This document shows positions 19,718 to 54,936 of a stretch of 64,000 nucleotides of DNA, in pieces. This stretch comes from Acidaminococcus sp. (GTDB lineage Bacteria > Bacillota > Negativicutes > Acidaminococcales > Acidaminococcaceae). Under the pieces are notes generated by a model, which saw nothing but the letters and a program-made list of their open reading frames with translations, was not told where the DNA came from and did no database searches. The stretch covers positions 1,880,946-1,944,945 of the forward strand of contig JAKVOM010000001.1 of NCBI GenBank assembly GCA_022482815.1, read 5' to 3'. Position 1 is the first letter of the stretch, and each line of letters opens with the position of its first letter. Made by a program: the position numbers and the translations under genes.

Positions 19718-19750
19718 AGACGAATCTGGTTTCCAGGTTCGTCTTTTTTT
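19718..19750 (+). terminator. terminator of the tRNA operon
   Basis: AGACGAATCTGG pairs with CCAGGTTCGTCT (one G-T wobble), followed by TTTTTTTG. The TATAAT immediately after (about 19752) may be the -10 of the next gene. Confidence 0.85.
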
Positions 19751-19789
19751 GTATAATAGGGGAAAGAAATGAAAGAAGGTGGAATTCCT

Positions 19790-25256: not shown

Positions 25257-25562
25257 GGTACACCGAAAAGAAAGGGAGGAGGAATATGTTATGCGCAGAT
25301 TCATACTCATCCTTTTCTAATGTACAAAATTTTACATTATATTGTATTGCATCCAACGAATTCATGCCAATTTTTTAATTTTTGTAAAATATTCGAAAAA
25401 ATACTATATCTTTCTGTTTATTCGGACTATAATAAAAATAAATTGATAGCAATAAAATAAACTTATTTCTATACTTAATAGCCGATAATCATTCTTACTA
25501 TAAATATTAATAGAATGAAAAAATACATCCGTTGTCTGTTTCTTTCAAAGGGGATGGGGATT
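25257..25562. other. AT-rich region upstream of autotransporter 1
   Basis: Strongly AT-rich, no repeat module and no gene. A possible longer start of the autotransporter frame lies at 25515. The promoter of that gene must lie here, but many A/T hexamers make any -35/-10 choice arbitrary. Confidence 0.4.
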
Positions 25563-28500: not shown

Positions 28501-28904
28501 AGTGGAGCATCGTGCCGCAGGCTCAGCTGCAGCTTTCCTATGTGGGCGGCTATGACTACTATGATTCGCAGGATCTCCATGTCGACGCCGATCATGATTG
28601 GAGCCTCATCGGCCGCCTGGGCTTTGACCTCGTGCGTGAACTTGATCCGAAACTGGACAGCAAGCTCTACTTCAAGGCCAGCGTGCTGCATGAATTCCTG
28701 GACGGCAGCGATGTGACCGTCAGCGCTAACGGAGATTATTATAACGATAACGGTGACCTGTCCGGCACCTGGGGCGTCCTGGGTCTCGGCTACAGCGCTA
28801 AAATTGGTGAGCAGCAGTATATGTACCTTGACGCAGAAAGGTACTTCGGCAATGATTTTGCCAGAACGTATAGTATACGCGCTGGTGTAAACTGGAAATT
28901 CTGA
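25563..28904 (+). CDS. autotransporter adhesin-like protein 1 (type Va)
   Basis: 1113 residues from ATG 25563. An N-terminal signal peptide (RRNVMLVLASLFVFGGSSTVCAG) precedes a long repetitive beta-helix-like passenger rich in G, S, T and N (for example NNKITGTQTAIRS, SGVNKISGGEAGAKASEGG), a junction region, and a C-terminal beta-barrel from about residue 820 (GGWVRLRYRNFGVDGTGEVDG) ending in GVNWKF with the terminal aromatic residue of outer-membrane barrels. It would be exported by Sec and displayed on the outer membrane. In-frame starts at 25515 and 25554 are possible. Paralogue of the next gene; the passenger differs, the barrel is almost the same. Confidence 0.9.
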   Translation: MRSRNDRQYRQLRRNVMLVLASLFVFGGSSTVCAGENRFSVTSGDKTVRGDCFDFTGTNKPAISISGSGATGLIESLNGGISATNNWSGSKSNDASTSSAIVASNGGNLKLQADQGDISVTGPYGMHAESGASITLEAVEGNNVIKGYTNAVSAFMEYPYQKGRGTVTIQNELGDNEISASYDGDLYANYVEFGNSPFYDMHGNGIYADFLLGPRYLESVHADLGEATDISVVAGHNNKITGTQTAIRSRYLNINVAAGGETDAEGKLAGVSTLGGKIEIHSNRNVIHGSGVELMSYITGTKTPETGYGIEAASDYYQTSQHNICEQEGLVNVQASGDNDIYGYTYGVYSHESNANVNVESSSGVNKISGGEAGAKASEGGRIQISGTTQVTGGNGTGTALAASHPIAPYLDLNIWVPSGAKSHDFGMEDWDDNVWDDDGDAAPASRNVRKAAAVKSTALRRSPANQNTETNQLVYPSIDLQYGAGSEVKGSVEALDGGTITISPQTKGTIAIYGNIASYTPYKEYSKWRETYYNEKYYFKDMLPDYPEKAAVNLTLSNGSTLTGTVDTGLMYAENSANNAVLIEDSDEAVSYKEAPEGAVLLGDVNLELNDTSVWNMTGPSAVTKLGGSGGTVAFVHGGHGLQIDELEGSHTFAMDLSMNGADSDMLYIREGASDEQTLKVKNSAALNQEMQSGDVVRFAVVSSSYDGFRNNKVYVPDGITNATLSVQYRSVASDPLNTQAYNDSYNGDGTNKPTTAEVQASYIDGYDDPQYVYLVKQDEEVITSDEQSHEYINDGAKTPGRARNIIWRYVTDLDTFTNRTGEAQYFTPGADQGGWVRLRYRNFGVDGTGEVDGNTYEIGYTTVVKDTDEEKHRFSVSGAYGKETGHFEGYGGSLEVRDASFNLYDTHEYFPAAEEMAAKPAWKKGTHSYWDTYLKYHHVKTDYSAVDHQTEARYDGNYDQDIISLSTEYGRENKLSDKWSIVPQAQLQLSYVGGYDYYDSQDLHVDADHDWSLIGRLGFDLVRELDPKLDSKLYFKASVLHEFLDGSDVTVSANGDYYNDNGDLSGTWGVLGLGYSAKIGEQQYMYLDAERYFGNDFARTYSIRAGVNWKF

Positions 28905-29442
28905 TAAACGCTGTGGCGCTTCGCGCAAAAAGAAGGCTGTGACGCCGCCTTTGGCGGCTAGCTATGGCTGCCTTCGGCAGCTGAAAGTTGACAATTAGGT
29001 CAGAGAATAGAATTAACAAAACAAAAGAGATATGACATCAGGGCATACGTTTCTAAATGGAGCGTATGCCTTACTTTTATTTAAAAGAAGCTATCTTCCA
29101 CCGCACTAGTTAGCACTTTCTGCGATGCTCCTTCTTACCAGCAAGAAAATAAACAATCAACTAGCCCCGATTTTTGCTGTCTGCAACTTTTGTAATAATA
29201 ATTTTAATGAGCAATATAAATTAATTGATTATTTCGTCAACTTATATTGAAAATTAATATAGAATTGCTTAAAATAAAAACAGATAATTATCAGTAAATT
29301 TAAAAAGCGTTAATTAATTTAGTTTATGACAGAGTTCCGGCATACTGGAGGCGATGAGAGGAGTAAGGCAGCATTAATCGGATTACAATTTCGCATACGT
29401 CGGGAGAGCACATTGTTTTGCTTAGGGGAAAAGGTGATAGCA
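28905..29442. repeat. repeats and AT-rich promoter region between autotransporters
   Basis: 28910-28960 is the GCGCTTCGCGC / GCCGCCTTTGGCGGC module in inverted orientation, 29042-29070 the GGCATACG...CGTATGCC hairpin with following T-rich bases (terminator-like), and 29085-29130 the 'agaagctatcttccaccgcact' module. This downstream block is copied at 32419-32600 after the second autotransporter. 29140-29330 is AT-rich without a gene. Confidence 0.65.
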
Positions 29443-32418
29443 ATGAGGACATCTTTAAAAAAGAGTGTGCTGTTGGCGCTGGCTGGATTTACTGTATTCG
29501 GGCTTGCTGGGAATGCTTATGCATATGATGAGTCGGGAACGGATGACCCTAAAGTCTATTCGGACGTCCGTTTTCACTCGTACCCCCCAGAAACGTATCA
29601 TTTTACATTTCCAAGTATTGAGATGACTGCTCCAAATACTAATGGATATTATTCCACTCCTGTGCCTGTCTGGGTTACGGATGGTAACCAGGTTTATCTT
29701 GAAGCAACGACGGGAAATGTCACTGTAGGAAAGCCTCTTTCTGATGGAGGTTGTAAATGGGGTGCCTATGTCGATAGTAGGGGTACCAATAGTGTACTCA
29801 CTAAACTCACCATAGATGCAAAGCAGGATGTTATAGTCATGGGGGAAGGTATCCATCATTTTGGAATTTCGGCCTATAACAATGCCGAAACCAAAGTTAT
29901 TGCTGGCGGCAATACGGAGATGTATGGCGGATATTCTACCATATATGCTTGCGATGCCGACGGTGAAAATGCTACAGGCAATACGCTTCTCACTGTTACA
30001 TCAGAAGGAAGCAACAACATTTATGCAGCGGATGATACCAGTAAAAATTACGGTGCTGGCTGCGTTTCTGCAAACAATGGTGCCGAAATCCAGATTGAAG
30101 CTAAAAATGGTGATAATAACTTTATTGCGACTGGCAATCGTTATAAGCTCTGTGCTATTGATTCGAACGTCATTTACCAAACCGGATATGGAACTCCAGT
30201 GAAACAGTCATTGGTAGAAGTTACTGCGGACAAGGGTTCCAACCATGTATCTCATCCTTACATGGGGATGAGAGCTAGAATTTGGGGTAAAATTGATTTC
30301 ACTGCCTACCAGGATAATACCGTTACAACGACGTTGCCAAACTATACCATGGGCGTCGATTCCAGAGGAAACGGAGCTGAAATACAACTAACCTCACAGC
30401 ATGGGAATAATGAAGTGACGGCGGATTATGCCGTTATTGGAGCTTATGGGGGTACCGTTACCTTCGATGCCCCGGGAGGAACCACGAAGATTACGGGTAC
30501 TACAGCAGGTATTCTCTCATCCGCGGGCGGTACTGTGACCGTGAATGACGCGTCCGATATTTCTGGCAGCACGGTGCTTCAGGCGGAAAGTTACCAACAA
30601 GATAGTACGGGTGCGAACGTCGGAGATCCGGCCAGCATTACTGTCAATTATGCCGGTGACAGTAAGATTACAGGCGACGCTATGCAGGCCTATAACAACG
30701 GCACAATCACGATTGCTCCCAGCGAAGACAGTGCTAAGGAAACAATTGTAAGCGACGTTGTGGCATTTGGAACGAATGATGCGGCTGTCGAATATGTCGG
30801 CGGGACAGTCGATATTCAATTGACAAATGGCAGCAGCCTGACGGGGCAAACGGCTGTGGCTGATAATGTGACGGAAGATTACGGAACGGTACGCGGCGGT
30901 ACCATTAACCTGGACCTGCCGAGTGGTTCTAATTGGTATATGACGGGTTCAAGCAGTGTGACGAACCTCAGCGGCGACGGCGGTACCGTTCATTTCCAAA
31001 ATGGCGGGCATTCTCTCCAGATTACGAATCAGCTCAGCGGGTCGCATACGTTCGTGCTTGACCTTTCAAAAGACGGTTCCCAGAGCGATATGATCTATAT
31101 GCGTCAGGGAACCAGCGATGAACAGACCCTGAATATCAGGAACCTCCAGGAACTGAGCGATTCCATGGAGGAAGGAGACGCGGTTCGTTTTGCCGTTGTT
31201 TCCGAATCGCAGAACGAATTCCGTGATGGCAAGGTGTATACCGCTGACGGTATCAACAACAAAGCCCTTAAAGTAGAATATCGTGATGTAGCTACGGATC
31301 CCCTCAATACGGATGCCTATAACGATGCCTATAACGGCGACGGTACGAATAAACCGACGACCGCACAGGTCAAGGCTTTCTATATCGATCCCTTTGAAGA
31401 TCCACAGTACGTTTATCTGGTACTCCCTGAGACCGAAGAGGAGCAAGAACCTGTGGTGAACGATGGTGCAAAGTCCCCAGGCAATTTTGAGGGCCTCTTG
31501 TGGCGCTACGTGACCGACATCGATACTTTTACCAAACGTGACGGCCAGTCGCTGTACTTCACGCCGGGCGCGGACCAGGGCGGCTGGATTCGTCTGGGCT
31601 ACCGTAACTTCGGCGTTGACGGTGTCGGCGAATTGGACGGCAACAGTTACGAACTCGGTTATACCGATGTGACGAAACAGACGGACGAAGCAAAGCATCG
31701 GCTCAGTTTGTCCGCAGCCTATTCCGATCCTTCCGGCCGGTGGGAAGGCCTTGACGGTGATATTGATCTCGAGGATTTCACCGTGGCACTTTATGATACC
31801 CACGAGTATTATCCGAGTGCCGAAAAGCGTGCGGCCATGCCCGAATGGAAGCAGGATTCCCACGCTTACTGGGATAACTATTTGAAGTACCATCATGTAA
31901 GATCCGACTACAGCGTCCGCGACCGCCAGACCGATACGCGGTATGCCGGTGATTTCAGCCGGGACGTCTGGAACCTGAGCACCGAATACGGCCATCGGCT
32001 GTACCTTGACAAAGGCTGGTTCTGGGTACCGCAGGTCCAGCTGCAGCTTTCCTACGTAGGCGGCTATGACTATTATGATTCGCAGGATCTTCATGTCGAT
32101 GCTGACCACGATTGGAGCCTTATCGGACGTCTGGGCTTTGACCTTGTGCGCGAACTTGATCCGAAACTGGACAGCAAGCTGTACTTCAAAGCCAGCGTAC
32201 TGCACGAATTCCTGGATGGTTCTGACGTGACTGTCGGAGCCAACGGAGAGTATTACACCGATGACGGTGATTATTCCGGTACGTGGGGCGTCGTCGGCCT
32301 TGGTTACAGCGCCAAGATTGGCGAGCAGCAGTATATGTACCTTGACGCAGAACGGTACTTTGGCAACGATTTTTCCAGGACGTATGGCATTCGCGCAGGG
32401 GTTAACTGGAAATTCTGA
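29443..32418 (+). CDS. autotransporter adhesin-like protein 2 (type Va)
   Basis: 991 residues from ATG 29443, where aggggaaaaggtg lies just upstream and the signal peptide RTSLKKSVLLALAGFTVFGLAGNAYA begins; the frame is open from 29326 but that adds 39 unlikely residues. Beta-helix-like passenger (about residues 30-640, with repeated NNxIxGxx and GGTVxxxxxG patterns), then the barrel (GGWIRLGYRNFGVDGVGELDG ... GIRAGVNWKF). The last ~110 residues are almost identical to autotransporter 1 while the codons differ often. It is surface displayed; no protease or known adhesin motif was recognised. Confidence 0.9.
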   Translation: MRTSLKKSVLLALAGFTVFGLAGNAYAYDESGTDDPKVYSDVRFHSYPPETYHFTFPSIEMTAPNTNGYYSTPVPVWVTDGNQVYLEATTGNVTVGKPLSDGGCKWGAYVDSRGTNSVLTKLTIDAKQDVIVMGEGIHHFGISAYNNAETKVIAGGNTEMYGGYSTIYACDADGENATGNTLLTVTSEGSNNIYAADDTSKNYGAGCVSANNGAEIQIEAKNGDNNFIATGNRYKLCAIDSNVIYQTGYGTPVKQSLVEVTADKGSNHVSHPYMGMRARIWGKIDFTAYQDNTVTTTLPNYTMGVDSRGNGAEIQLTSQHGNNEVTADYAVIGAYGGTVTFDAPGGTTKITGTTAGILSSAGGTVTVNDASDISGSTVLQAESYQQDSTGANVGDPASITVNYAGDSKITGDAMQAYNNGTITIAPSEDSAKETIVSDVVAFGTNDAAVEYVGGTVDIQLTNGSSLTGQTAVADNVTEDYGTVRGGTINLDLPSGSNWYMTGSSSVTNLSGDGGTVHFQNGGHSLQITNQLSGSHTFVLDLSKDGSQSDMIYMRQGTSDEQTLNIRNLQELSDSMEEGDAVRFAVVSESQNEFRDGKVYTADGINNKALKVEYRDVATDPLNTDAYNDAYNGDGTNKPTTAQVKAFYIDPFEDPQYVYLVLPETEEEQEPVVNDGAKSPGNFEGLLWRYVTDIDTFTKRDGQSLYFTPGADQGGWIRLGYRNFGVDGVGELDGNSYELGYTDVTKQTDEAKHRLSLSAAYSDPSGRWEGLDGDIDLEDFTVALYDTHEYYPSAEKRAAMPEWKQDSHAYWDNYLKYHHVRSDYSVRDRQTDTRYAGDFSRDVWNLSTEYGHRLYLDKGWFWVPQVQLQLSYVGGYDYYDSQDLHVDADHDWSLIGRLGFDLVRELDPKLDSKLYFKASVLHEFLDGSDVTVGANGEYYTDDGDYSGTWGVVGLGYSAKIGEQQYMYLDAERYFGNDFSRTYGIRAGVNWKF

Positions 32419-41397: not shown

Positions 41398-44300
41398 ATG
41401 TTTTGTATGAAATGCGGCACAAAGCTGCCGGACGATGCAAAGTTTTGTTATAAATGCGGCGCTAAGGTGCCGGAGGGGCTTTCCGGCGGGGCCGAGACTC
41501 CACCAGAGCCTACAGTCGGGAAAGAGACTTCGGCAGCGGCAGACACTCCGGCAAAAAACGGGGCACCGAAACCGATTACGGAAGAAGCGGCTGTTCCAGA
41601 CGAAGGTCCGTCTGAAGTTTCCGGAGAATCGGAAGCAAACCTGCCGGACATACCGGGCGAACATGCACTCATTTCTTCAAAATACCATATTGATTTTCCG
41701 CGACCCCTGGCCCTGCGGCGGGAGCTTTGGGCTCCTTTTAACCGGGAGGGCTATCGTCAGCAGTGGTTCGTGGCCCAGCATATCAGAAAGAATATCAATG
41801 TAGAGGATTATCAGGATCCGAACGAACTCTTAAAGGCGCTTGCGGTTATTATCTTCGGGGGCTGCCGAAGCTCCATTGAAGAAGCGGTGGAAGTCCTGAT
41901 TGACCATGGTGTTGATTTTGTCAGCAGCAATGACCTGATGGACAAGCTTTTTGACCATTTTAATCAGACAGATCTGGCCCGCGGACTCGCACAGGATGCG
42001 GAGGCAATCGACAAGTACCTGCAGCAGCTCGGCGTGGAAAAAGAAATGAACAAGGCCAACTGGCAGGGCGGCGGGTTCGGTATTACCGGTGCCATTAAGG
42101 GTGCCGTCGAAGCCAGCATGCTTAACATGGCCCAGGACGGCTTGAGCTCCCTGGGACGGGCCATTACCGGCAATACGTATGAGGGCCGGGCCAAGAAATT
42201 TATCCGTCAGCGCCTGGATCATCGTGATTACGCCACCATGGGCGGCAACATCGCCAATAACATTATCTCGGTCTGGCTTGTCAATGAAATCGTAGATGTG
42301 CTGGTACAAAATCATAAACTTCCTCCTTTTTCTTTCCATACGAGGGAAGTCAAAAGCCGGATGGACAATATCAACGCCATGCTGGAAAAAGGGCGGTACA
42401 CCAAGGATATGGCGATGCAGGCCCTTTGTGACTGTCTTGCCTCGACTGGTTCCAGCTTCAGTGTCTATCTCGCCATGGCGAAACTTGAGCCGGAAGCGAT
42501 TCCGGATATCCTGAAGGTCGCCGACTCCGAAGGGGATGCCCTGGCTCTGGCTGATATACTGTGGGACAAGATGCATCAGAGCGGGAGTATTGCTTTCCCG
42601 AAATGGGTCGAAAGTATGGGCATTGAGGAAGGGTATAATATCACGTCTGCTGCAGAAATGAGCGTGGTTCGTTATCTCTTTGAGCAATTTCCGGAACAAT
42701 ACCGGGATCGGGTTTTCTTTATCAATGGAGATAACCTGACGGTTCCATTTTATCCGGACCTGGAAGAAGCTAACTATTATGGATTTGGCGACAATGTGAA
42801 GTTTGCTTACGATGGTACGGAACCCCTTGATTTTTCAGCCCATGCTATCAGCTTTTTTAATATCCATTTTGAGCCGCCCTACGCAGCGGTGGAAGCTGCC
42901 CGGGTGGAAAAACTGAGAGAAGAGGCAAGGCTGGCTCAGGAGCAGGGCAACTTTGAAGAGGCGGAAGACGCTTATTTGGCCGGTGCCAATATGGGTGATC
43001 CGGAGTGTATGTACCGCCTGGGCCTTTTGCTTCAGGGCGATGATGAGTCTGAAGATGCTGATACGTGGCTGCAGACAGCGGCGGATCTGGGGCATCCCGA
43101 GGCGTCATGGGAATATTTCCAGCAAAGTGTCAGGGAAGATGAAACGCCGGACTATGACTACCTGTTTAAGGCCGCTAAGGCAGGTCATGGCATGGCCAAT
43201 TTCAAGGCCGGAGAAATCTATGAGAATGGTACGGATCTGGAAGACGGAAAAGATTTCGATAAGGCTGTAACGTATTATAAAAGGGCGGCTGAACTCGGTG
43301 TAGAGGGCGCTGCCGAAGCAATGCAGCGGGCAAAGAAGGCGCTTTATACGCCGGAATTCCAGGAGGCTCTTTTCAAAAACTACCGGAAATATCAGGGGAG
43401 CGATGAGGAAAAGGCGCTGGACTACCTCCGCCGCTCCGCTGCCTTAGGATATGAAGAAGCGCGCAGCGAGCTTTCCGCCTGGGATCTGAAAAAGGCTGCA
43501 GAAGCAAGACAAGATGGCAGCGAGACCGATTGGGAGAGCGTCTGCGCTCTTTATGAAGAAGCTGCGAAATATAACAGTCCCCAGGGCTGCTACGAATTCG
43601 CCCTTTTAAAGGAAAAGGGGTTGGGAAAGCCGATCGACCAGGAGGGCGCAGCAGCGCTCATTTTGCAGTCCGCCCAATACGGTTACGGCCCGGCCTGCGT
43701 CCGGATGGGACAAAAGGAGGCGGGTTCAGGGCACGCCGAAGAGGCTTTTCAATGGTATCAAAAAGGCGCCGCGGCTGATGACCTGGAGGCATATATTCAA
43801 TTGGGGTTCTGCTATCAAACGGGCAGCGGCTGCGACCTAAATCTGAAAAAGGCACTGACTTGTTTCCGCAAAGCCTATGCAGGCGGTGTGAACGAAGCGG
43901 AAGCTTCCATGGTGAGAGCGGATCTTGAATGGGGCGATGAATGTCAGGCCGTCAGCCGGTTCAGTGAAGCCCTGGCGTGCTATGAAGAGGCAGCTTCCTG
44001 CAAGAACGTGGATGGCATGCTGAAAGCCGCGAAGCTGAGAGGCAATGCGGAACTGCAGGATTGCTACGATTATATCCGGGCCATGAGCTGGTATGACAAT
44101 GCGGCAGTGCTTCGGCCGGAAACAAAGGAAACGAAAGAAGCACGCATTTGCTTGAAGGCTTCCGGATCCTTTGAGGAAAGCATGGCTTATTTCGCACGCC
44201 GGTATGGTTCGTCCCTGCAGGGAAGCCATTACCATCTGGGGCAGGAAATCACCGAAGGTATTCTGAATAATGCCATGGATGCGTATGGCAGCAGAATGGG

Positions 44301-45237
44301 CGTGGAGCGGTCCGATGTCTTCATCGTCTGTGACGCTTCCAATGCGCTTTTGTGGGGCAAAGCCAAGGACGGATTCATACTCACAAAAAGTGGATACGTC
44401 TACAATTCTCAAGGAATGACGGCCTCCTTGAATGATTTTTCCAAGATTTATCTGAGCGACCAGCATGTCCTTTACAGCAATACGGGTTTTGTCTTCTGCA
44501 CTTTCAAGAGCGGCGACTGCGGCAGCCTGGATGAAATGTTCGCGTCGTGGCTGTCAGAGACAACGATTCTTTCGGACGAAGAATACAATATTGCCTGTGC
44601 TTACGGTATTTTTAAAGATGATGAGGAGACTTCCGGCGAAGCACGTCCTGAAGCTCAGAAAGCGGTGGACGGTGAAACGCGAACAACCGAACCCGCTGCT
44701 TCAGGCACACAGACTGCCGGAGGCTTCTGTCCCCAGTGCGGGGCGCCTGTGATTCCCGGCGACCGTTTCTGCTGTAACTGCGGGGCTCCTCTGGCAGCTC
44801 AGGAAAATCCAGTAGCAGGCGGGAGCGCGGGGCCCAGTGAGGAAAGTCTCCGCGCCTTTGTAGAACAGCTGTCTCAGCAGGTTGGCAGTGATCCTACTTA
44901 CGTCCACTGTGCTCCCCATATTCCGGAGGAAAAACTGCAGAATGTACTGACGAGCTACGCTCAGAACATGTCCCTTGCTCCGGAAGACATTCTTGTCCTC
45001 TGTGACAGTACGATCAGGGGAAGCGCTCGCGATGGATTTATTCTGACTAAGGACTATTTGATATCCTCAGAGAAGGGGCCTTTTGCCCTGAAAGATATTG
45101 AGTGGCTGGAAACTCCCGAGAGCCTATTTCATGCACATATGTATGTACATCCCGGGAAGAGAGAGTTTCTGTCCATCCCTCCGGACAAAGAATTGAGAGC
45201 TTTTTGTGAGGGTATGAACAAACTTTTGAAAAAATAA
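41398..45237 (+). CDS. large double zinc-ribbon, Sel1-repeat protein of unknown function
   Basis: 1279 residues. Residues 3-22 are a CxxC...CxxC zinc ribbon, followed by a low-complexity linker to about 95. A helical region of about 100-500 contains the glycine-rich hydrophobic GGGFGITGAIKGA at about 224-236. Residues ~500-920 are Sel1/TPR-like repeats (AYLAGANMGDPECMYRLGLLL, YKRAAELGVEGAAEAM and others). Residues 935-1060 form a domain with VCDASNALLWGKAKDGFILT; a second zinc ribbon is at ~1111-1131 (CPQCG...CCNCG); residues 1150-1279 repeat the same domain (LCDSTIRGSARDGFILT). The ATG at 41398 follows ggggagagg. No signal peptide. Probably a cytoplasmic scaffold; function unknown. Confidence 0.88.
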   Translation: MFCMKCGTKLPDDAKFCYKCGAKVPEGLSGGAETPPEPTVGKETSAAADTPAKNGAPKPITEEAAVPDEGPSEVSGESEANLPDIPGEHALISSKYHIDFPRPLALRRELWAPFNREGYRQQWFVAQHIRKNINVEDYQDPNELLKALAVIIFGGCRSSIEEAVEVLIDHGVDFVSSNDLMDKLFDHFNQTDLARGLAQDAEAIDKYLQQLGVEKEMNKANWQGGGFGITGAIKGAVEASMLNMAQDGLSSLGRAITGNTYEGRAKKFIRQRLDHRDYATMGGNIANNIISVWLVNEIVDVLVQNHKLPPFSFHTREVKSRMDNINAMLEKGRYTKDMAMQALCDCLASTGSSFSVYLAMAKLEPEAIPDILKVADSEGDALALADILWDKMHQSGSIAFPKWVESMGIEEGYNITSAAEMSVVRYLFEQFPEQYRDRVFFINGDNLTVPFYPDLEEANYYGFGDNVKFAYDGTEPLDFSAHAISFFNIHFEPPYAAVEAARVEKLREEARLAQEQGNFEEAEDAYLAGANMGDPECMYRLGLLLQGDDESEDADTWLQTAADLGHPEASWEYFQQSVREDETPDYDYLFKAAKAGHGMANFKAGEIYENGTDLEDGKDFDKAVTYYKRAAELGVEGAAEAMQRAKKALYTPEFQEALFKNYRKYQGSDEEKALDYLRRSAALGYEEARSELSAWDLKKAAEARQDGSETDWESVCALYEEAAKYNSPQGCYEFALLKEKGLGKPIDQEGAAALILQSAQYGYGPACVRMGQKEAGSGHAEEAFQWYQKGAAADDLEAYIQLGFCYQTGSGCDLNLKKALTCFRKAYAGGVNEAEASMVRADLEWGDECQAVSRFSEALACYEEAASCKNVDGMLKAAKLRGNAELQDCYDYIRAMSWYDNAAVLRPETKETKEARICLKASGSFEESMAYFARRYGSSLQGSHYHLGQEITEGILNNAMDAYGSRMGVERSDVFIVCDASNALLWGKAKDGFILTKSGYVYNSQGMTASLNDFSKIYLSDQHVLYSNTGFVFCTFKSGDCGSLDEMFASWLSETTILSDEEYNIACAYGIFKDDEETSGEARPEAQKAVDGETRTTEPAASGTQTAGGFCPQCGAPVIPGDRFCCNCGAPLAAQENPVAGGSAGPSEESLRAFVEQLSQQVGSDPTYVHCAPHIPEEKLQNVLTSYAQNMSLAPEDILVLCDSTIRGSARDGFILTKDYLISSEKGPFALKDIEWLETPESLFHAHMYVHPGKREFLSIPPDKELRAFCEGMNKLLKK

Positions 45238-45664
45238 AAAGGTGCTTTTGGCTTGCAGCTGTGTGAAAGCTTTTGATTCAAATAAAATATGATATAAAAG
45301 CTGAAATTTAGCAGTTACCCTGAATTTCAGCTTTTATTTTTTATAAGTTTGTAGAAAAATAACAAGGGGAATGTGAAATAACGCATGTGCTATTTCACAT
45401 TCCCTTTTTCTGCTTTTGTACCTGTTATTCAGCGTATTCAGTCGATTTTTCCATGTACCTTTTATGGCATAATTTTGCATAGGATTGTGTCTGGGACTAC
45501 CCGGGACAATAAACGAAGTAAACAGGGAGAGATTTTGCTCTGAAAGCAGAAAAACGGCTGGAATTGGAAGATCATACGGCATCGGGCTGGAAATCAATTG
45601 ATTTATATTATAGAATAATAAGACAAAGTATTATTTTAACTAACAGAAACAGGGAAGTGTATTC
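45238..45664. other. double terminator and shared upstream motif
   Basis: 45297-45343 is a hairpin AAAAGCTGAAATT/AATTTCAGCTTTT with T tract, and 45366-45409 a second hairpin GGGAATGTGAAATA/TATTTCACATTCCC with T tract. 45431-45485 carries the motif shared with 41114-41175. The rest is AT-rich with no gene; agggaag at about 45651 serves the next gene. Confidence 0.65.
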
Positions 45665-46543
45665 ATGTCTAAATTTTGTACGCACTGCGGAGCGCCGCTG
45701 AAGGAAGGCGCGAAATTCTGTTCTCACTGCGGTGCCGGTGTGCAAGATGTGAAGAATGGGGAAAATTCCTCTGCTAGGACTCAAAATCAGGTACCGCCGC
45801 TGCAGGGCACGAAACCGGTTTCTTCCGGAGGTTCAAACGGGAGTATGGCCCTTAAGATTGGTGCTGCCTTTGTGGTTGCCGTGGCTATCGGCTTTGGTAC
45901 GATTCAATTTATGGATTCCAGAAATAAGCCTGCAGAAACGCCCGCTCCTGCTGTACAGACAGAACAAGCTGCCGAGACGCCAAAAGAAGCACCTGAAACT
46001 GAACCTGCAAAACCGGTTCCTCAGGGCCCGATGGAAATTTCCAGGCAGATTGCCAGGGAATACGGCGTCAAGGGCACGGTTGAAGCTACGACGTACGGAC
46101 ACAACGATAATGGGTTCCTTATCGTCGAGGGCGGAAAGGGCAGAAGGATTACCCTTATTGATACGAAAAATCACAGAGTGGCTTATGTTGGTTTTCGCCA
46201 TCAGGATGAGTTAAGGGATTTTTACAGTATGTTTCAATCAGGTGTCAATGAGCCAAATGGCATGATTACTGTAGACTTCACCATCGATCATGATACCCAT
46301 GACAAGGATGAGAAAAACGGCGATTGGATTGGGGATACCCATAGAATCTCTGTATTTTGTGATTACAAATACCAAGATGGGGTAGTGGAGCCAGGTATGC
46401 TGTATTCGGGCGTCGGATTTCGTCCCGGCCACTATCATGGCTACTTGTATGAACAGAAGAACGTAGATATGTGTAACCTGCTTCTTGAAGATTTGCCTGC
46501 ATTATTTGTTGATGCGGATAAACACAAGGTATCGTTCTACTAA
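45665..46543 (+). CDS. zinc-ribbon, single-pass membrane protein
   Basis: 292 residues. Residues 1-24 are a zinc ribbon (FCTHCGAPL...FCSHCG). A polar linker leads to one transmembrane helix at about 60-82 (ALKIGAAFVVAVAIGFGTI), then a proline-rich stretch, then a globular C-terminal domain of about 170 residues with mostly beta character (GFLIVEGGKGRRITLIDTKNHRVAYVGF). With no signal peptide, the ribbon should be cytoplasmic and the C-domain outside. I do not recognise the C-domain. 36 bases separate it from the next zinc-ribbon gene, so the two form an operon. Confidence 0.85.
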   Translation: MSKFCTHCGAPLKEGAKFCSHCGAGVQDVKNGENSSARTQNQVPPLQGTKPVSSGGSNGSMALKIGAAFVVAVAIGFGTIQFMDSRNKPAETPAPAVQTEQAAETPKEAPETEPAKPVPQGPMEISRQIAREYGVKGTVEATTYGHNDNGFLIVEGGKGRRITLIDTKNHRVAYVGFRHQDELRDFYSMFQSGVNEPNGMITVDFTIDHDTHDKDEKNGDWIGDTHRISVFCDYKYQDGVVEPGMLYSGVGFRPGHYHGYLYEQKNVDMCNLLLEDLPALFVDADKHKVSFY

Positions 46544-46579
46544 CATAATGAATAATCCATCCGGAAAGGAGAAACATAG

Positions 46580-47317
46580 ATGAGTAAAAAATGTATCAAG
46601 TGCGGAGCCATGATTGCCGACGATGCAGAGTTCTGCCCTGAATGCGGAACCAAACAGGCCAAAGAAGCGGCTGAGGGGAAACCTGCTGAGAGACATTGCC
46701 CTTACTGCGGGGCTAAACTCAGTGCGGACGCCGCTTTTTGCGGAGAATGCGGAAAACCTGTAGGAGCAGGAAATCAGGCTGTCGGAAACGGCCAAACTGC
46801 ACAGGGTGCTTCTCCAGCCGGCCAGCAGGGAACGTCTGCAGGGAATCGTTCGTATCAGGCTGCTCCACAGACGGAACAAAGTTCACCTATGCCTATCAAA
46901 AAGTTAATGATTGCCTTGATTGCCGTTGCGGTTGCAGTCGTTGGTTATTTCGTCTACTCTATGGCTGGTCCACCCTCTATCAGCGTAAAGGCCAAGGATA
47001 TGGTGAACGACTATGTTCGCGACCAGGCAGGGGCTGAGAAAAAGTATAAGGGTAAAAGAATAGAAATTACCGGAACTGTGATTCATAAATCTCAGTTTAC
47101 GAATACCCAGAACTACAATGTCACAATCGCATACCGAGGAGTGGGCGGCAAAGATTATAGCATAGTCCTCGATGTCGACAACAAAAATGTGGCAAAAGTC
47201 AATGCCGTGAAAGTGGGTGATTTCGTAAGTGCTCAGGGTACCTGCGTGGGCATTGTAGCCCAGGAAGAACCCACGGATATTTCTGTGCAGATCAAGGCCG
47301 ATAAACTTAATGAGTAG
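46580..47317 (+). CDS. double zinc-ribbon membrane protein with OB-fold-like C-domain
   Basis: 245 residues. Two zinc ribbons (CIKCG...CPECG at 4-24; CPYCG...CGECG at ~38-57), a Gln/Ser/Gly-rich linker, and one transmembrane helix at about 109-130 (LMIALIAVAVAVVGYFVYSM). The C-terminal ~110 residues (DMVNDYVRDQAGAEKKYKGKRIEITGTVIHK...IVLDV...VGDFVSAQGTCVGI) resemble the tRNA_anti-like OB-fold domain of exported proteins. aaaggag precedes the ATG. Second gene of the zinc-ribbon operon, ended by the hairpin at 47361. Confidence 0.86.
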   Translation: MSKKCIKCGAMIADDAEFCPECGTKQAKEAAEGKPAERHCPYCGAKLSADAAFCGECGKPVGAGNQAVGNGQTAQGASPAGQQGTSAGNRSYQAAPQTEQSSPMPIKKLMIALIAVAVAVVGYFVYSMAGPPSISVKAKDMVNDYVRDQAGAEKKYKGKRIEITGTVIHKSQFTNTQNYNVTIAYRGVGGKDYSIVLDVDNKNVAKVNAVKVGDFVSAQGTCVGIVAQEEPTDISVQIKADKLNE

Positions 47318-47360
47318 ACAAGACAGGACGCGGTATATCCTGCAGACGAATTCGTAGTTA

Positions 47361-47403
47361 AAGAAGACCCAAAGTGATGAAAATCGCTTTGGGTCTTCTT
47401 TTG
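47361..47403 (+). terminator. terminator of the zinc-ribbon operon
   Basis: An 18-bp stem AAGAAGACCCAAAGTGAT / ATCGCTTTGGGTCTTCTT (one wobble) with a short A-rich loop and T's after. 47404-47696 is AT-rich and carries no recognisable gene; the next ribosome-binding site ggggtggg ends at about 47691. Confidence 0.88.
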
Positions 47404-47696
47404 CAATTGGTCCCGATGGGCCTAATTTCGCGTACGGATATATACAGCGGGAAAAAGAATTCGAAGAAATACATTCATGAGGAAAATCGACAGACTATTC
47501 CGCATAATAAGGCGACTTTGCACGTGAAAAAATGTGCAATAATAAAAATAATAATAATTTATACGTCGAAACTTTTTAAAACAAAATTTTAACCTAGGTG
47601 GAATGCAGCTAAACATTTGCCGCCATTTTAAAATTCAAGCGTGCTGATAGGGCGTAAAAGTAAAATAAACGGAAAACTTCGAACGGGGTGGGAAAG

Positions 47697-50294
47697 ATGA
47701 AAGAATACCATATTGCTGAAAGAACAATTGCTGTTCCTGATGAGTTTTTGGAATATGTTGCGTATAAAAGAAAGTGTTTAGCGTACGCATTTGACGGCCA
47801 GCTCGATATGTTTTGGACAGTTCGTTCTATTGAAACCTTAGATAATATTATTATGGGGTTTCGCCCGTACAATAGTGACATAAAAAATACATTCTTTTAC
47901 AATACTATTCAACGAGTAATTTTTTATACTGTACAAAAGTGTATTGAAAAAAAGATATATGATTATGATAAATCAGCTCTTTATAACAAACTGTTAGAAG
48001 CACATATTTTTGACCAAATTGATGAAGATTGTGAAGAGTTATTTAATATTTATGACAAAATTGAGGCTTCGATAGATGAAAATGAGCGGGCCCGAGAGAT
48101 GCGTAAGGAAACAAGAAGCCGGGTCTCAGGCGGTGGATTTGGCTTAACAGGTGCCATTAAGGGCATGCTTTTGGCTGAAGGAATGAATTTAGCCACAGGT
48201 TTAGCCCATGATTTCATCAACTTTGTCGGGAACGCCAGTGATGAATACAAGGGAGAACAACTCAAGAAAGCTATTGTCGATTCCGGGATACCGCTGCTTA
48301 TCCTTCAGAATGCGTTATATAATACCGTATTTCGTATTATGTATTATTTTTCAAGCGAACTTTTTCATTTTCCGACTTTTATCAATCCTGTTAATTACGA
48401 TAAGTCTGAAGGGCGCCTGAATAATATTGAAGAAAATCTTCTCCCTGACAATGTGGCGAGAGAATCAATCCTTGATTTAATTCAAGCTGATCCTGAATAT
48501 ATAAAGCCCTATAAACTGAAAAGATACTTTGCCAAGGAAGAGCAAAAAGAAATAGACAGGCTCGCCGATGATATGGATGTCTTTCATAATCAAGCCCTCT
48601 ATGATGGCTACGCATCTTATTTCTCATTTGACACGATGCCTGAAGAGGTCATGAAAAATATAACCATCGACCGGTTAAGAGCTGTACATGACGGTGACTA
48701 TAATACCTGTTTATCGCTGGGGATGCTGACCATTGATAAAAAGAAACAAATGGATATAGGTTCCCTGATGAACAACTTTGGTTACTATCTGCTGGAAAGT
48801 ATTCGAAAACGAGATAAAACAGGCAAGATAGCTTATAAAATTATGTATTGGCTCAAATCCGTGGAACAAAACAGTGGAAGCACCAGTAATATTATTATTA
48901 AGGACATCAAAGAATTAAAGCAGGAAGCCTTGGACAAGGGATGCATTTTTGCACAGGCAGAGTCAGTTATCACTTTATACAATGAGGGAAAAGAAGATAA
49001 AGCAAAAGAGACAGTGGAGAAACTGGCTGAAAAGTATCTTGAGGATAAAGAGACGACTCTTTTTATAGCTGATTTTTATTTGAATGGCTCACACAATATC
49101 CATCATGATTATAAAAAGTTCGAGCAAATTCTCCTCAACAACGAAAGTATTCCTGAGGTGCAATCGTTTATCAATCAAATAAAGGCGAAAAATTTATGGG
49201 GAGATCCGGATACACAAAGTAAATTGGCCTACGAATTAGCTCGGCTTTATCTTATTGGACATCAGGGTGATTTCAGAGTTAAGAGAAATATTTCCACAGG
49301 CCTTTTCTACTTTAAGAAAGCTATTCATACAGGTTTTACGCTAACGATTGAAGATTTAGGGTTAATTGAAAATGTTATAGTGGATGAGCCGCTTACAGCA
49401 AATGAGGTGGAATCATTCATTGCAATACTCCAATCTCTTAACAAGAAACAAGACTGGAGAATAGACCGCCTTCTCGCCATCCTTTATGAAAGAAAAAAAT
49501 CATATGCTAAAGCCGAAGAAATGATTTATTCTTTGCTTGGTACCCACTATGAAGATGCGATAGAATTATTGAAAAAATACTGTGTTGGTCAGGATGGAAA
49601 AGTTAGCCTGCACCTTACAGACCAAGCAAAGTGTCTAAAAATATATCAGGTGTTAGCGGCGTGTGGAAACAAAGATGCCCAGAATTTTAATCAAATTTAC
49701 TGCATACGCATGAATTTAGATTGGAATAAAGCGGAGGCACTTCCCTTACTACGGCAAAGGGCAACATATGATTCTCGAGCCCAATTTGTCTTACGAGGGG
49801 AGGAAATTCTTTCCTGGGAAGGCCAGTATGATGACAGATTAGCTAAGGAAATGGAGTCATATCTGGGTGAGTGCCCGGAAATTGCATATTACCTGGCTTC
49901 TTATTTTTGGAAACATCAAAATGAAAACCCACAATTTCCGGAATTTGCTTTGAGTTACATTGGCAAATTGGGGCAAGGCCTTGAAAATAACCCGAGCCCG
50001 TATCTTCCCAACAGCTATTTCGCGAGATGTTGGTATTATGTAGGAAAGTATACTCTCGATCATAACGATAGTCTCGATAAGCTGAAGGAAGGCTTACAGG
50101 ATATGCAGACAGCGGCTCGTGGTGGGATAAAGGAAGCTCAGAAATTTCTCAATCAATACGGCAAAGAACTTGATAGGCGCATAGCTGCCGCAGAGGCAAG
50201 AAGAAAACAGGACGAACAGGATAGTAGTCTGGGACCCACTTTGGCTGCTATTGTTTTGCTTTTGATTATTTTTTATTTTATTATTGGCGGATGA
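47697..50294 (+). CDS. large GGGFG/TPR-like protein with C-terminal membrane helix
   Basis: 865 residues. An N-terminal helical region precedes the segment SGGGFGLTGAIKGMLLAEGMNLATGLAHDF... (about residues 145-170), which matches the GGGFGITGAIKGA segment of the 1279-residue protein. Residues ~400-800 are helical-repeat (Sel1/TPR-like) sequence, and a single C-terminal hydrophobic helix (LAAIVLLLIIFYFIIGG) would anchor it as a tail-anchored protein. It has no zinc ribbon. Much more AT-rich than its island neighbours, hinting at separate acquisition. The ATG at 47697 with ggggtggg upstream is chosen. Function unknown. Confidence 0.86.
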   Translation: MKEYHIAERTIAVPDEFLEYVAYKRKCLAYAFDGQLDMFWTVRSIETLDNIIMGFRPYNSDIKNTFFYNTIQRVIFYTVQKCIEKKIYDYDKSALYNKLLEAHIFDQIDEDCEELFNIYDKIEASIDENERAREMRKETRSRVSGGGFGLTGAIKGMLLAEGMNLATGLAHDFINFVGNASDEYKGEQLKKAIVDSGIPLLILQNALYNTVFRIMYYFSSELFHFPTFINPVNYDKSEGRLNNIEENLLPDNVARESILDLIQADPEYIKPYKLKRYFAKEEQKEIDRLADDMDVFHNQALYDGYASYFSFDTMPEEVMKNITIDRLRAVHDGDYNTCLSLGMLTIDKKKQMDIGSLMNNFGYYLLESIRKRDKTGKIAYKIMYWLKSVEQNSGSTSNIIIKDIKELKQEALDKGCIFAQAESVITLYNEGKEDKAKETVEKLAEKYLEDKETTLFIADFYLNGSHNIHHDYKKFEQILLNNESIPEVQSFINQIKAKNLWGDPDTQSKLAYELARLYLIGHQGDFRVKRNISTGLFYFKKAIHTGFTLTIEDLGLIENVIVDEPLTANEVESFIAILQSLNKKQDWRIDRLLAILYERKKSYAKAEEMIYSLLGTHYEDAIELLKKYCVGQDGKVSLHLTDQAKCLKIYQVLAACGNKDAQNFNQIYCIRMNLDWNKAEALPLLRQRATYDSRAQFVLRGEEILSWEGQYDDRLAKEMESYLGECPEIAYYLASYFWKHQNENPQFPEFALSYIGKLGQGLENNPSPYLPNSYFARCWYYVGKYTLDHNDSLDKLKEGLQDMQTAARGGIKEAQKFLNQYGKELDRRIAAAEARRKQDEQDSSLGPTLAAIVLLLIIFYFIIGG

Positions 50295-50384
50295 GATATA
50301 ATTGCCGGAGCTTTATGGCTGTTTGTCCTTTATAGTTTCGTTGTTGGGAGTTCGTACAAGATTTTACTAACTTTAAAGTCTGAA

Positions 50385-50430
50385 AGAAGATTCGAAGTAA
50401 TGCCCAAATACTTCGGGTCTTCTTTTTTAT
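50385..50430 (+). terminator. terminator after the 865-residue gene
   Basis: AGAAGATTCGAAGTA pairs with TACTTCGGGTCTTCT, followed by TTTTTT. The remaining 50431-50652 is AT-rich, with no gene beyond a 14-codon open frame at 50587 that I cannot support. Confidence 0.75.
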
Positions 50431-50652
50431 ATCACAATACAGCACCGGCAGAAAGTATTTCATTGCAGGCAGGAATCTCTAAATCGCGTAAAAGTAGAAT
50501 AATAATACTTATATTTAGCCGAATTGGTAAAAGATGAGTTGTGTCATAATAAAAATAGAACGGAAATGATAAAGGGATGGAAGCCTATGGGGGTATTTCA
50601 GCAGCCAATTAAGGTAAGCAGTTTTAGATGAAACAATAAAGGGGAGAGTGTA

Positions 50653-51048
50653 ATGATCAAAGAAATTGTTTCGGTTATATTTGTGTTAGGCGCCATTGAT
50701 TGGATCACTTCAAGTGAAGGCGAGTATGTATTTCATTCCGGGGATTCCAAGAAGCCTGAATTTGCCTGTGTGGATTTTGTACCTGTGAATAGTATTTCAA
50801 CTCCGAAACTGGGAAATGAACTTTATGTCTATATTACCAATCAAACAGGAAAAAAATTGAAATCGGCCGAGGTGGAATGCAAATTACTCAACCAGAATGG
50901 AGCTACGATAAAAACTGTAAAATCCACAATAGATGACGAACGAATTATGCCCGGCGAATCTTTCAGGGCGACCTTTAGTACAAGTCAGGATTTGACCCCG
51001 ATTAACTATGATTATATTAAAGTCACCAAGGTCAAATATACGTACTAA
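50653..51048 (+). CDS. small exported protein, FxLYD-like
   Basis: 131 residues with an N-terminal hydrophobic helix (IVSVIFVLGAIDWI) that could be a signal or anchor. The rest has an immunoglobulin-like pattern (LGNELYVYITNQTGKKLKSAEVECKLLNQNGATIKTV...MPGESFRATF) resembling FxLYD domains. It aligns weakly along its length with the next gene product (YxFxxxxxKxPxF near the start, a late GESF/GESIGF). ggggagag precedes the ATG. Function unknown. Confidence 0.72.
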   Translation: MIKEIVSVIFVLGAIDWITSSEGEYVFHSGDSKKPEFACVDFVPVNSISTPKLGNELYVYITNQTGKKLKSAEVECKLLNQNGATIKTVKSTIDDERIMPGESFRATFSTSQDLTPINYDYIKVTKVKYTY

Positions 51049-51081
51049 AAAAATTTTATTTATTCTGGAGGCAGTGCTCAT

Positions 51082-51507
51082 ATGATCGCTCATATAAAAA
51101 AAGGCCGCATCATCTGGATTTTGCTTACTATATTGTTTTCCGTGCTATTGGTGTCCGGATGCGGAGATTCTAAGAAAGCTCAATTACCGAATCGGGGATA
51201 CTATCGCTTTAATGCAGCGAGTACAAAAAGTCCGGCTTTTACCATACAGGATTCAAGATTTACAGATCTCCTTAATGGGACAATCGATATAACGCTTAGA
51301 AATAATGTAGGCCCGTTAAAAGAAGTCAATCTCATCCTGGAAAGACAGGATGTCTGGGGACAGCACATCGACAATGTGGTTCTGACAAAGAAAGGAAAAT
51401 TTGCCAAAGGAGAATCCATCGGATTTGCCGACAATATATCCGCTCTTGATTTTGCCGTAGGCGGATTTAGAATTTGGGGAGTCGATTATAAATTTGACAG
51501 AGACTAG
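51082..51507 (+). CDS. small lipoprotein, paralogue-like of preceding gene
   Basis: 141 residues. A lipoprotein signal peptide with lipobox VSGC at about residue 30 (ILLTILFSVLLVSGCGD). The mature domain has the same beta-rich layout as the preceding protein (NRGYYRFNAASTKSPAFTIQD; DITLRNNVGPLKEVNLILERQ; KGESIGFADN). It lies 33 bases after the previous stop, with ggaggcag upstream, so the two are one operon. A hairpin terminator at 51548-51582 follows. Confidence 0.78.
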   Translation: MIAHIKKGRIIWILLTILFSVLLVSGCGDSKKAQLPNRGYYRFNAASTKSPAFTIQDSRFTDLLNGTIDITLRNNVGPLKEVNLILERQDVWGQHIDNVVLTKKGKFAKGESIGFADNISALDFAVGGFRIWGVDYKFDRD

Positions 51508-51547
51508 AACTTTTGCATTGAAATGATAGATGCAGTTTCTTGAATTT

Positions 51548-51582
51548 AAGCCCGGAACTGAACGTGTTTTGGGCTTTTTTTA
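51548..51582 (+). terminator. terminator after small lipoprotein gene
   Basis: AAGCCC (51548-51553) pairs with GGGCTT (51571-51576), followed by TTTTT; the loop is 17 bases. Confidence 0.6.
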
Positions 51583-51672
51583 TTCCAAGCCGTTAGACGA
51601 CTGTGGTGTTCAAAGTAAGAGCATTTAAGCCTAGAAATTTGATTTAGATGCTCATTTCAGAGGTGCTGAAAT

Positions 51673-52236
51673 ATGAAAAAATTGGCAACGCTTCTTTTGT
51701 GTATTTCTTTACTTTTTGTTGCGTCGATTACATATGCAAACGATATTACATTAAAAGATTGTAGAATTGGACCTATCGGATGTGGGGATGCTTTTGATAT
51801 GGGACAGATGAACGATTTGTTCGGAAATCTTATCAAACCTGCCGGAGCAGCTAATGAGTATGGAAGTCGCCTGATGTTTTTGCTCTTTCACAAAAGTTTC
51901 GTGGAAGTATGTGATAATCGATTGCATGAGATTTATGTGTACAGTGGCTATGCAAATAATGGTGTTGTTCTTAGTACTCCGCGTGGTATTGTTGTCGGTG
52001 ATAATTTGGATAAGGTGCTTCGTTTGTATGGACAGCCCACATTTGCATCACATTATAAAAAAGATAAAGATTATGATCACGCTCGCGACTCCTATGTTTA
52101 CACTTCCTCAGATTTTAGAAATAGGTTATCTTTTACAGTTAATTCTGATACAAATCAGGTTGAGTATATTTCCACTAAGCAGAAAATATCTGTAGTTGTT
52201 AAAGAGAACGGGAAGACACACAAAATTATATTCTAA
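51673..52236 (+). CDS. secreted protein of unknown function
   Basis: 187 residues with a clear Sec signal peptide ending ...ISLLFVASITYA-ND at about residue 22. The mature part has an internal Cys pair (CRIGPIGCGD) and a segment GIVVGDNLDKVLRLYGQPTF, similar in style to exported proteins in which a 'G.s..evl..yG.P' motif marks a SmpA/OmlA-like fold; that is a weak impression. AT-rich like its neighbours. Ribosome-binding site agaggtg before the ATG. Terminator at 52271. Confidence 0.78.
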   Translation: MKKLATLLLCISLLFVASITYANDITLKDCRIGPIGCGDAFDMGQMNDLFGNLIKPAGAANEYGSRLMFLLFHKSFVEVCDNRLHEIYVYSGYANNGVVLSTPRGIVVGDNLDKVLRLYGQPTFASHYKKDKDYDHARDSYVYTSSDFRNRLSFTVNSDTNQVEYISTKQKISVVVKENGKTHKIIF

Positions 52237-54654: not shown

Positions 54655-54936
54655 ATGGGAGTAGACACAAGAAAACAGGTTTTTTGCAAGATTATTGGGG
54701 CAAAAATCCGGTATTATCGTACGCTGCGCGGAATTCCGGAAGGTGGGCTGAGCCAGATGGATGTAGCCAAAAAGGCTAACCTTCACCCGGATACGGTGTC
54801 CCGACTGGAGAGAGGCGCCTACAACGACAGCATTCCGCTTTCCACACTGATGGATGTGGCCGATGCATTAGGCATCGACGTGTCCCTGTTGCTCACCATC
54901 AGTGACACGGAAAAGAAACTGATTCAGTGGGAGTAA
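54655..54936 (+). CDS. XRE-family helix-turn-helix regulator
   Basis: 93 residues. A Cro/C1-type HTH at about residues 14-70: IIGAKIRYYRTLRGIPEGGLSQMDVAKKANLHPDTVSRLERG, then LSTLMDVADALGIDVSLLLT. No extra domain. Preceded by a T/A-rich promoter region with CATAAT at about 54620-54625 and 'aaaaaggag'. The target is unknown; the flanking genes are a channel and a nitroreductase. Terminator at 54989-55030. Confidence 0.9.
   Translation: MGVDTRKQVFCKIIGAKIRYYRTLRGIPEGGLSQMDVAKKANLHPDTVSRLERGAYNDSIPLSTLMDVADALGIDVSLLLTISDTEKKLIQWE

Follow-up and report, generated by a model that had tools for sequence, protein, structure and literature searches.

An undescribed glycine-rich helical domain shared by two large proteins of a zinc-ribbon gene region in Acidaminococcus

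RESULTS

Two large proteins share a whole undescribed domain

Two large proteins of an Acidaminococcus sp. can be assigned, by sequence comparison, to an undescribed family, the hallmark of which is a helical domain of about 270 residues around a glycine-rich GGGFGxxGAxxG loop. We call this the GGGFG domain, a name coined in this analysis. The genes lie in what we term the window, the whole stretch of 64,000 nucleotides that was analyzed, which corresponds to positions 1880946 to 1944945 of a genome assembled as one contig, 3,057,042 bases long (GCA_022482815.1, contig JAKVOM010000001.1). An initial annotation of this DNA had marked out seven genes, here P1 to P7, as a candidate system, and the genes, their positions, and their strand (+ for all seven in the open reading frame [ORF] list of the window) are as it described them. 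It had likewise pointed to a segment common to P1 (41398..45237; 1,279 amino acids [aa]) and P4 (47697..50294; 865 aa). That segment is indeed present in both, as GGGFGITGAIKG in P1 (42067..42102, residues 224 to 235, modeled with a predicted local distance difference test [pLDDT] score under 50) and as GGGFGLTGAIKG in P4 (48129..48164, residues 145 to 156). By BLAST, the two proteins reach significance only around GGGFG, with 38% over 60 columns. Comparison of the P1-family and P4-family profiles with hhalign (10 and 12 sequences, respectively, aligned without near-duplicates such as L032 and L042) extends the similarity beyond chance to 268 columns, with a probability of 99 and an E value of 3.9e-18. 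As judged by this comparison, P1 and P4 share a whole homologous domain of about 270 residues with the GGGFG segment as its core, lying at residues 83 to 382 of P1 (41644..42543) and at residues 1 to 303 of P4 (47697..48605). Because the whole domain is shared, the two are counted here as members of one uncommon family encoded 2.5 kb apart.

Among the matches listed from Pfam, NCBIfam, PADLOC, and PHROGs, none has its best stretch on the GGGFG domain of P1 or P4, and a profile of the domain gave nonsignificant matches only when compared with solved structures. The portions of the published literature on zinc ribbons with Sel1 repeats, on Bunzi and BnzA, on TerB and TerD, and on Acidaminococcus ribbons that we could consult contain no account recognizable as the GGGFG family. 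The structure model of P1 (1,200 residues; mean pLDDT, 83.1; predicted template modeling score, 0.45) represents the domain, which is mostly helical, as long helices at high pLDDT with a low-confidence glycine-rich loop in the middle.

Outside the common domain, the two proteins have different builds. P4, which at 15.5 bits falls below the Sel1 cutoff of 30.7, continues with a helical region and ends in a hydrophobic segment (50229..50285, residues 845 to 863; mean hydropathy of 2.68 over 19 residues), as expected of the tail-anchored protein that had been proposed. P1 has no clear transmembrane segment. It begins with a zinc ribbon (PF13240; 41401..41469, residues 2 to 24), which is followed by the GGGFG domain and by a Sel1/TPR-like array (42880..44172, about residues 495 to 925). 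The Sel1 repeats (PF08238) score 41.8 bits against the same Pfam cutoff, and the modeled array superimposes on solved Sel1 proteins with a best Z score of 17.4 (root mean square deviation of 1.9 over 129 aligned residues). The C terminus of the model consists of two repeats, in each of which seven strands are capped by a helix, at 44254..44562 (about residues 953 to 1055) and, as seen in the predicted secondary structure, at 44926..45231 (about residues 1177 to 1278). A second zinc ribbon, found by Pfam (44728..44793, residues 1111 to 1132), stands between them. The initial annotation had placed ribbons at both ends of the Sel1 array; there are two ribbons, and the second lies between the further repeats, not at the end of P1.

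These C-terminal repeats may be PH-like, a name that we take from the order of their elements in the model. The bPH families of Pfam had no match in the seven fragments searched, no solved structure was found by sequence for the last 130 residues of P1, and Foldseek and VIA-align searches with the P1 model returned lists filled by Sel1, TPR, and other helical-repeat chains that were uninformative for the PH-like and GGGFG regions. A further similarity came from the profiles of PADLOC. Residues 1155 to 1226 of P1, at the second repeat, match positions 8 to 75, in the N-terminal part, of the 544-position profile for BnzA of the Bunzi antiphage system (E value, 4.6e-10). The match recurs in 8 of the 11 members of the P1 family, the P1 of the window included, with a best E value of 9.8e-15; this family set omits L033, in which P1 is split into two ORFs, and L045, whose contig is that of L031. 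Further BnzA matches were found in the GGGFG proteins of L153 and L154, and P1's own repeat as the query also finds L040 and L150.

Distribution of P1 and the GGGFG domain

A P1-like protein is encoded in 10 others among the 150 genomes searched, our own included. In six of these genomes the match covers approximately the whole protein and is split into no more than two pieces, and in four it covers the N- and C-terminal parts. All else that this search found was ribbon or Sel1 stretches. The P1 relative in genome G007 consists of two overlapping ORFs (L033:9381-13201), so that either the gene is disrupted or its sequence is in error. A search with a profile of the GGGFG region, as had been suggested at the outset, found the domain in 29 of 380 Negativicutes genomes, again with our own included. 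A narrower profile (A3) found it in 4 of 398 genomes sampled across the phylum.

Relatives of the domain also occur on two Acinetobacter plasmids. On that from Acinetobacter pittii (L109:1269-9419), a GGGFG-type gene stands beside SAVED, Mov34, ThiF, and nucleotidyltransferase genes and a recombinase gene, and these four neighbors would, in our reading, constitute a cyclic oligonucleotide-based antiphage signaling system (CBASS). The second plasmid carries a reverse transcriptase gene about 3 kb from the GGGFG gene. Comparison of Escherichia coli genomes at the DNA level gave no match to the Acinetobacter relative, and scans of IMG/VR with four single proteins gave no relative. Three records of a phage collection (L102, L103, and L111; MT835879, MT839628, and MT839723), labeled "UNVERIFIED: Bacteriophage sp." and derived from fecal samples, hold GGGFG genes and are unannotated. 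By eye, we saw genes in them that we take to be recombinase-, comF-, or amidoligase-like; because no structural phage gene was recognized by eye, these records may be bacterial. A plasmid or phage origin of the copy in the window was considered and set aside: the plasmids gave no match to P4 or P1, and the phages, searched with P4 only, yielded two records, both UNVERIFIED and unannotated.

Genes surrounding the domain in other genomes

We examined the surroundings of the domain at 19 Negativicutes loci outside the P1 clade (L039 to L044 and L142 to L154). One of these, L154, resembles P1 in its build and has a BnzA-type end. The counts that follow leave aside the window itself, the P1-clade loci, and L046, L102, L103, L105, and L109 to L111. 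One pattern concerns an XRE regulator. The window encodes one such protein (54655..54936, +), relatives of which precede P4-type genes elsewhere; here it lies 4.4 kb behind P4, and its link to the seven genes is uncertain. This protein was used as the sole query, since a set of five queries was partly circular, four of them having been taken from the loci themselves. At an E value of 1e-6, 7 of the 19 loci have a relative in the 1 kb that precedes the GGGFG gene. The background at this threshold is one match in the other 270.6 kb of the loci (at L145, where it precedes the GGGFG gene by 3.2 kb) and one match in the 471.9 kb of 29 control loci, at the P2-type locus L094. Relaxing the threshold to 1e-4 gives nine matches at eight loci, one match elsewhere in the loci, and three in the controls. 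The association at 1e-6 has a P value of 4e-8 by Fisher's test, with the loci treated as independent.

Genes of a mobile-element backbone, namely, CL63 and proteins that we take to be DUF932-like and ERF-like, occur at 7 of the 19 loci and at L094. In the last, a P2-type domain is the cargo behind an XRE regulator on the mobile backbone. A common backbone is seen in L041 to L044, L094, L145, L146, and L152, which come from several Negativicutes families; the cargo is of the GGGFG or P2 type and mostly has an XRE gene in front. None of nine backbone marker proteins has a match in the window. Other neighbors are found at single loci or pairs of loci. An LRAT-type gene (PF04970) immediately precedes the GGGFG gene in L146 and follows it at a distance of 1.5 kb in L152, a ribbon-TerD gene lies directly downstream in L153 (E value, 7.2e-45; TerD at this one locus only), SHOCT and DUF4352 proteins are encoded near L148, and genes for small proteins with signal-like starts follow the GGGFG gene in L146 and L148.

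As to gene order around P1, guaA precedes it in G020, and in the window guaA lies 5 kb ahead of P1 in the same order. Among the genes listed for the loci read, no other locus holds all seven, as far as gene calls trained on the codon usage of the window can tell; these calls missed a P2 gene of L083 that is found by the whole-genome search and by a plain ORF list. In the absence of a second case among these loci, the single conserved seven-gene system that the initial annotation had envisaged was rejected. Of the neighborhood, the conservation of which it had proposed as a check, the P2-P1 and P3-P2 pairs recur in other genomes.

The ribbon membrane proteins P2 and P3

Both P2 (45665..46543; 292 aa) and P3 (46580..47317; 245 aa) were described as zinc-ribbon membrane proteins, and this description is sound. 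The ribbons of P1 (two), P2 (one), and P3 (two) all score above the Pfam cutoffs, and P2, P3, and P4 have one clear hydrophobic segment each, starting at residues 62, 109, and 845, respectively. P2 is thus predicted to follow the order ribbon, transmembrane segment, and exported domain, and P3 is predicted to place two ribbons and a transmembrane segment before an exported OB-like domain of the tRNA_anti-like type (PF12869; 43.6 bits against a cutoff of 23.5).

The 7 of 120 genomes with a full-length P2 are exactly those with a full-length P3 (G000, G002, G004, G005, G006, G007, and G099, our own among them). Six of the seven belong to one genus, where nine genomes divide into six with both proteins and three with neither. 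The seventh, G099, is from another family and has P3 and P2 adjacent twice; the second pair has as neighbors an XRE regulator, two more ribbon proteins, and one protein with a signal-like start. Ribbon proteins are expanded in this genome, which has P2 in three copies and P3 in two (L083:9047-11208 and 15724-20000; L084:1-1103) alongside further ribbon proteins and XRE. P2 stands directly upstream of P1 in G002 and G004, which count as approximately one lineage because the gene order is common to both, and elsewhere in the genome in G006 and G007. At two of the eight P1 loci that lack P2 as a neighbor, G041 and G050, less than 1 kb of contig precedes P1, but no P2 match is listed for either genome. 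P3 has a different ribbon neighbor in G002, G004, G006, and G007.

The small proteins P5, P6, and P7

The three remaining genes had been described as encoding exported small proteins. For P6 and P7 this is in keeping with their N termini, and for P5 it is weaker. The N-terminal hydrophobic stretch has a mean hydropathy of 2.46 in P6 and 2.23 in P7 and of 1.67 in P5, so that P6 and P7, and perhaps P5, are putatively exported on reading of these N termini. P5 (50653..51048; 131 aa) is an FxLYD-domain protein (NCBIfam NF038353; 25.7 bits against a cutoff of 23). P6 (51082..51507; 141 aa) is a probable lipoprotein, with LVSGC, seen by eye, closing the signal. P7 (51673..52236; 187 aa) has a signal-like start. 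A P7-like domain is fused to a ribbon-transmembrane anchor in G110 (E value, 6e-9) and stands alone in G007 (E value, 3e-8). P5 and P6 have no relative among the loci compared, these being the extent of the search for either.

Layout and base composition of the region

The gaps between the genes, from P1 to P7, are 427, 36, 379, 358, 33, and 165 bp, and terminator-like stems follow P1 and P6. Together these suggest several transcription units, P1, P2-P3, P4, P5-P6, and P7, instead of a single operon. The stems are weak evidence, since the region has 12 in total against a mean of 12.2 in shuffled sequence. The GC content is 0.52, 0.48, and 0.49 in P1, P2, and P3 and 0.38, 0.38, 0.41, and 0.36 in P4, P5, P6, and P7.

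There are 15 PF13240 matches in the 3.06-Mb genome, assigned to 11 genes, and the clustering of ribbon genes exceeds chance; at least 3 of 11 random positions fall inside 6 kb in 0.19% of simulations, a model that does not include tandem duplication. The same genome has a second ribbon cluster (L086; G000:C1:264001-281000), in which ribbon-transmembrane proteins flank a lipoprotein-like gene at 270 to 274 kb and a further ribbon protein is encoded at 264 kb. Elsewhere in the window, two consecutive large ORFs of 1,129 and 1,030 aa (25515 to 32418) have N termini resembling those of exported surface proteins, and two adjoining ORFs of 414 and 420 aa (4245 to 7338) are presumably transposase-like and reverse-transcriptase-like. 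In a test of flanking genes in eight other genomes of the genus, one gene was found in 1 of 8 and a second, for which there was no positive control, in 0 of 8.

DISCUSSION

A possible membrane-tethered scaffold module

The reading that we favor, tentatively and at somewhat less than an even chance, is that the region encodes a membrane-tethered scaffold module of the stress- or phage-response type, with two modules side by side. P1 and P4 would be cytoplasmic scaffolds held at the inner membrane, in which the GGGFG domain is joined to partner-binding repeat arrays and to a means of membrane contact, a transmembrane tail in P4 and BnzA-like repeats in P1; the glycine-rich loop and the PH-like repeats may themselves bind membrane. 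P2 and P3, by their predicted topology, would be ribbon anchors for exported domains, and P6 and P7, with P5 as a less certain third, would likewise act outside. The exported parts might sense envelope damage or an intruder, the ribbon anchors might relay the signal across the membrane, and the GGGFG proteins could then build a sub-membrane complex by which the cell is protected or shut down, comparable to what has been proposed for Ter and to PspA-YdjGHI of Bacillus subtilis. A stress or antiphage response would fit better than housekeeping because XRE regulators and, at some loci, LRAT-type enzymes, ribbon-TerD, and mobile-element genes recur near relatives. We treat such a functional role as a lead. 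The initial annotation made no claim of defense, and its caution may be relaxed slightly, as far as a lead, by the BnzA likeness and by the CBASS-like, TerD, and mobile-element genes near relatives. Its suggestion of an undescribed family with a membrane-linked assembly is reasonable in light of the common domain, the recurring P2-P1 and P3-P2 pairs, and the proteins with signal-like starts at L146 and L148; it is the single conserved system that does not stand.

At best, the seven genes would work like Ter or Psp, and they depart from Bunzi, Ter, and Psp in the features compared. With Bunzi there is the match to the N-terminal region of BnzA in P1, in seven other members of its family, and in L153 and L154. 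However, Bunzi includes TerB according to a table in PMC10952713, whereas P1 to P7 have no TerB among Pfam matches at E values up to 1 (for P3, among the best 25 of 30 families) and no BnzB match in a PADLOC scan that covered these seven proteins only; the GGGFG domain, the ribbons, and the Sel1 array are extras of P1. The Ter system, in the part of PMC7824862 available to us, comprises ligand-binding TerB and TerD, membrane TerC, and sub-membrane structures that block entry. The likeness is by analogy, in the combination of sub-membrane structural parts with ligand-binding domains and membrane parts, and one GGGFG relative, in L153, is adjoined by ribbon-TerD. In B. subtilis, PspA and YdjI depend on YdjG and YdjH to reach the membrane, and when ydjG or ydjH is deleted, the foci and the membrane recruitment of PspA and YdjI are lost (PMC8581546); YdjG combines two ribbons with an NTF2-like domain and a transmembrane segment (PMC11237479). 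The likeness would lie in ribbon-bearing and membrane proteins that recruit a cytoplasmic complex to the membrane, and the differences are that the genome has no PspA and that no SPFH match is listed among P1 to P7. P1 resembles Sel1-repeat proteins in passing the Pfam cutoff and in matching solved Sel1 structures, and the GGGFG domain, ribbons, and PH-like repeats are foreign to that family. TcaA has the plan of ribbon, transmembrane segment, and exported domain that P2 and P3 follow, but these score 11.1 and 16.9 bits, respectively, against an NCBIfam equivalog cutoff of 550.

A number of observations weigh against a scaffold module for stress or phage response. All seven genes were seen together in this window only, and P2 adjoins P1 at just 2 of 10 other P1 loci, in about one lineage. 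With the queries used, a relative of the domain was found on 2 of 72,556 plasmids, both from Acinetobacter, and in 3 of 50,697 phage records. The regulator-positive loci are not independent, since four of the seven come from genus g16 and two of these from the genome G038. Twelve of the 19 loci have no XRE regulator at an E value of 1e-6, the ten P1-clade loci (L029 to L038) have no member of the family within 4 kb (L030 and L034 having less than 1 kb upstream), and neither P1 nor P4 of the window has one within that distance. Twelve of the 19 loci are likewise without the mobile backbone, the markers for which were themselves drawn from L042 and L044. The BnzA match in P1 is limited to positions 7 to 75 of the 544-position profile and is not seen in the GGGFG proteins of L040 and L145. 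No TerB, TerC, TerD, or PspA is among the Pfam matches listed for P1 to P7, a search for PspA/IM30 gave 0 matches in the whole genome and was positive in 9 of 14 control genomes, and the structure model of P4 is too poor for use, with a mean pLDDT of 41. The succession of strands and helices in that model is similar to the N domain of P1, a likeness to which we give no weight.

Alternative explanations

The alternative that survives best, although we consider it rather unlikely, is that there is no common system and that a variable chromosomal region has gathered P1 as a native ribbon-Sel1 gene, P2-P3 as a ribbon pair, and, at a later time, the low-GC block of P4 to P7, the products of which have separate roles. 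The contrast in GC content, 48 to 52% in P1 to P3 against 36 to 41% in P4 to P7, makes one seven-gene machine improbable; by its composition, the region resembles a ribbon block to which a P4-type block of separate history was added. The scarcity of the flanking genes in the genus (1/8 and 0/8) and the failure to find all seven genes at any other locus read point the same way. What such gathering does not readily explain is that two members of an uncommon family with a whole domain in common lie 2.5 kb apart, that the ribbon genes cluster beyond chance, and that the P2-P1 and P3-P2 pairs recur.

It is also doubtful, in our estimate, that the genes serve envelope homeostasis without defense, as a Negativicutes counterpart of YdjG, YdjH, and YdjI that would steady the inner membrane when alkali, antibiotics, or solvents stress it. 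The plan shared by P2 and P3, with a ribbon, a transmembrane segment, and an exported domain, is matched by the ribbons, NTF2-like domain, and transmembrane segment of YdjG (PMC11237479), and ydjG and ydjH are needed for membrane recruitment of PspA and YdjI (PMC8581546). Moreover, P1 looks like a long-standing chromosomal gene of the Acidaminococcaceae, its order with guaA being kept in the window and in G020. Against this, the genome has no PspA although 9 of 14 control genomes are positive, and relatives lie near mobile backbones, CBASS-like genes, a reverse transcriptase gene, and TerD, which would be unusual for housekeeping. The Psp system itself was rejected as an identification, since the genome is without PspA.

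Sel1 arrays are generally partner-binding repeats, and an assembly scaffold for exported or cell-surface proteins, in which Sel1/TPR arrays and ribbon anchors provide quality control at the inner membrane with P5 to P7 as clients, would draw on this, on the match of P1 to a solved Sel1 protein (Z score, 17.4), and on the two large ORFs with signal-like starts upstream (25515 to 32418), but P1 to P7 have no protease, chaperone, or secretion domain above the cutoffs of Pfam and NCBIfam, the regulator, LRAT, and TerD contexts are left unexplained, and we regard it as very improbable.

Implications

The membrane-tethered scaffold that we favor could be taken further. The GGGFG proteins might represent a new modular class of membrane-tethered immune scaffold that Negativicutes mobile elements carry as cargo under XRE control. 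The scaffold of ribbon, GGGFG domain, and repeats would connect exchangeable sensor and effector parts (an LRAT lipid enzyme, TerD, a BnzA-type repeat, or exported domains) and would halt phages or rival elements at the envelope; on this view, the window would hold a chromosomal double copy. We consider this extended form unlikely, and it is offered as a speculation. The analysis leaves an undescribed domain family that has a patterned context, and for it a function in defense or stress is a lead. Proteins that combine ribbons, repeats, and membrane segments appear repeatedly in these genomes, with no role assigned to them. The GGGFG family links such proteins to a single family of regulators and, at some of the loci, to Ter- or Bunzi-type parts and mobile elements, and it may thereby give a concrete entry point to them.

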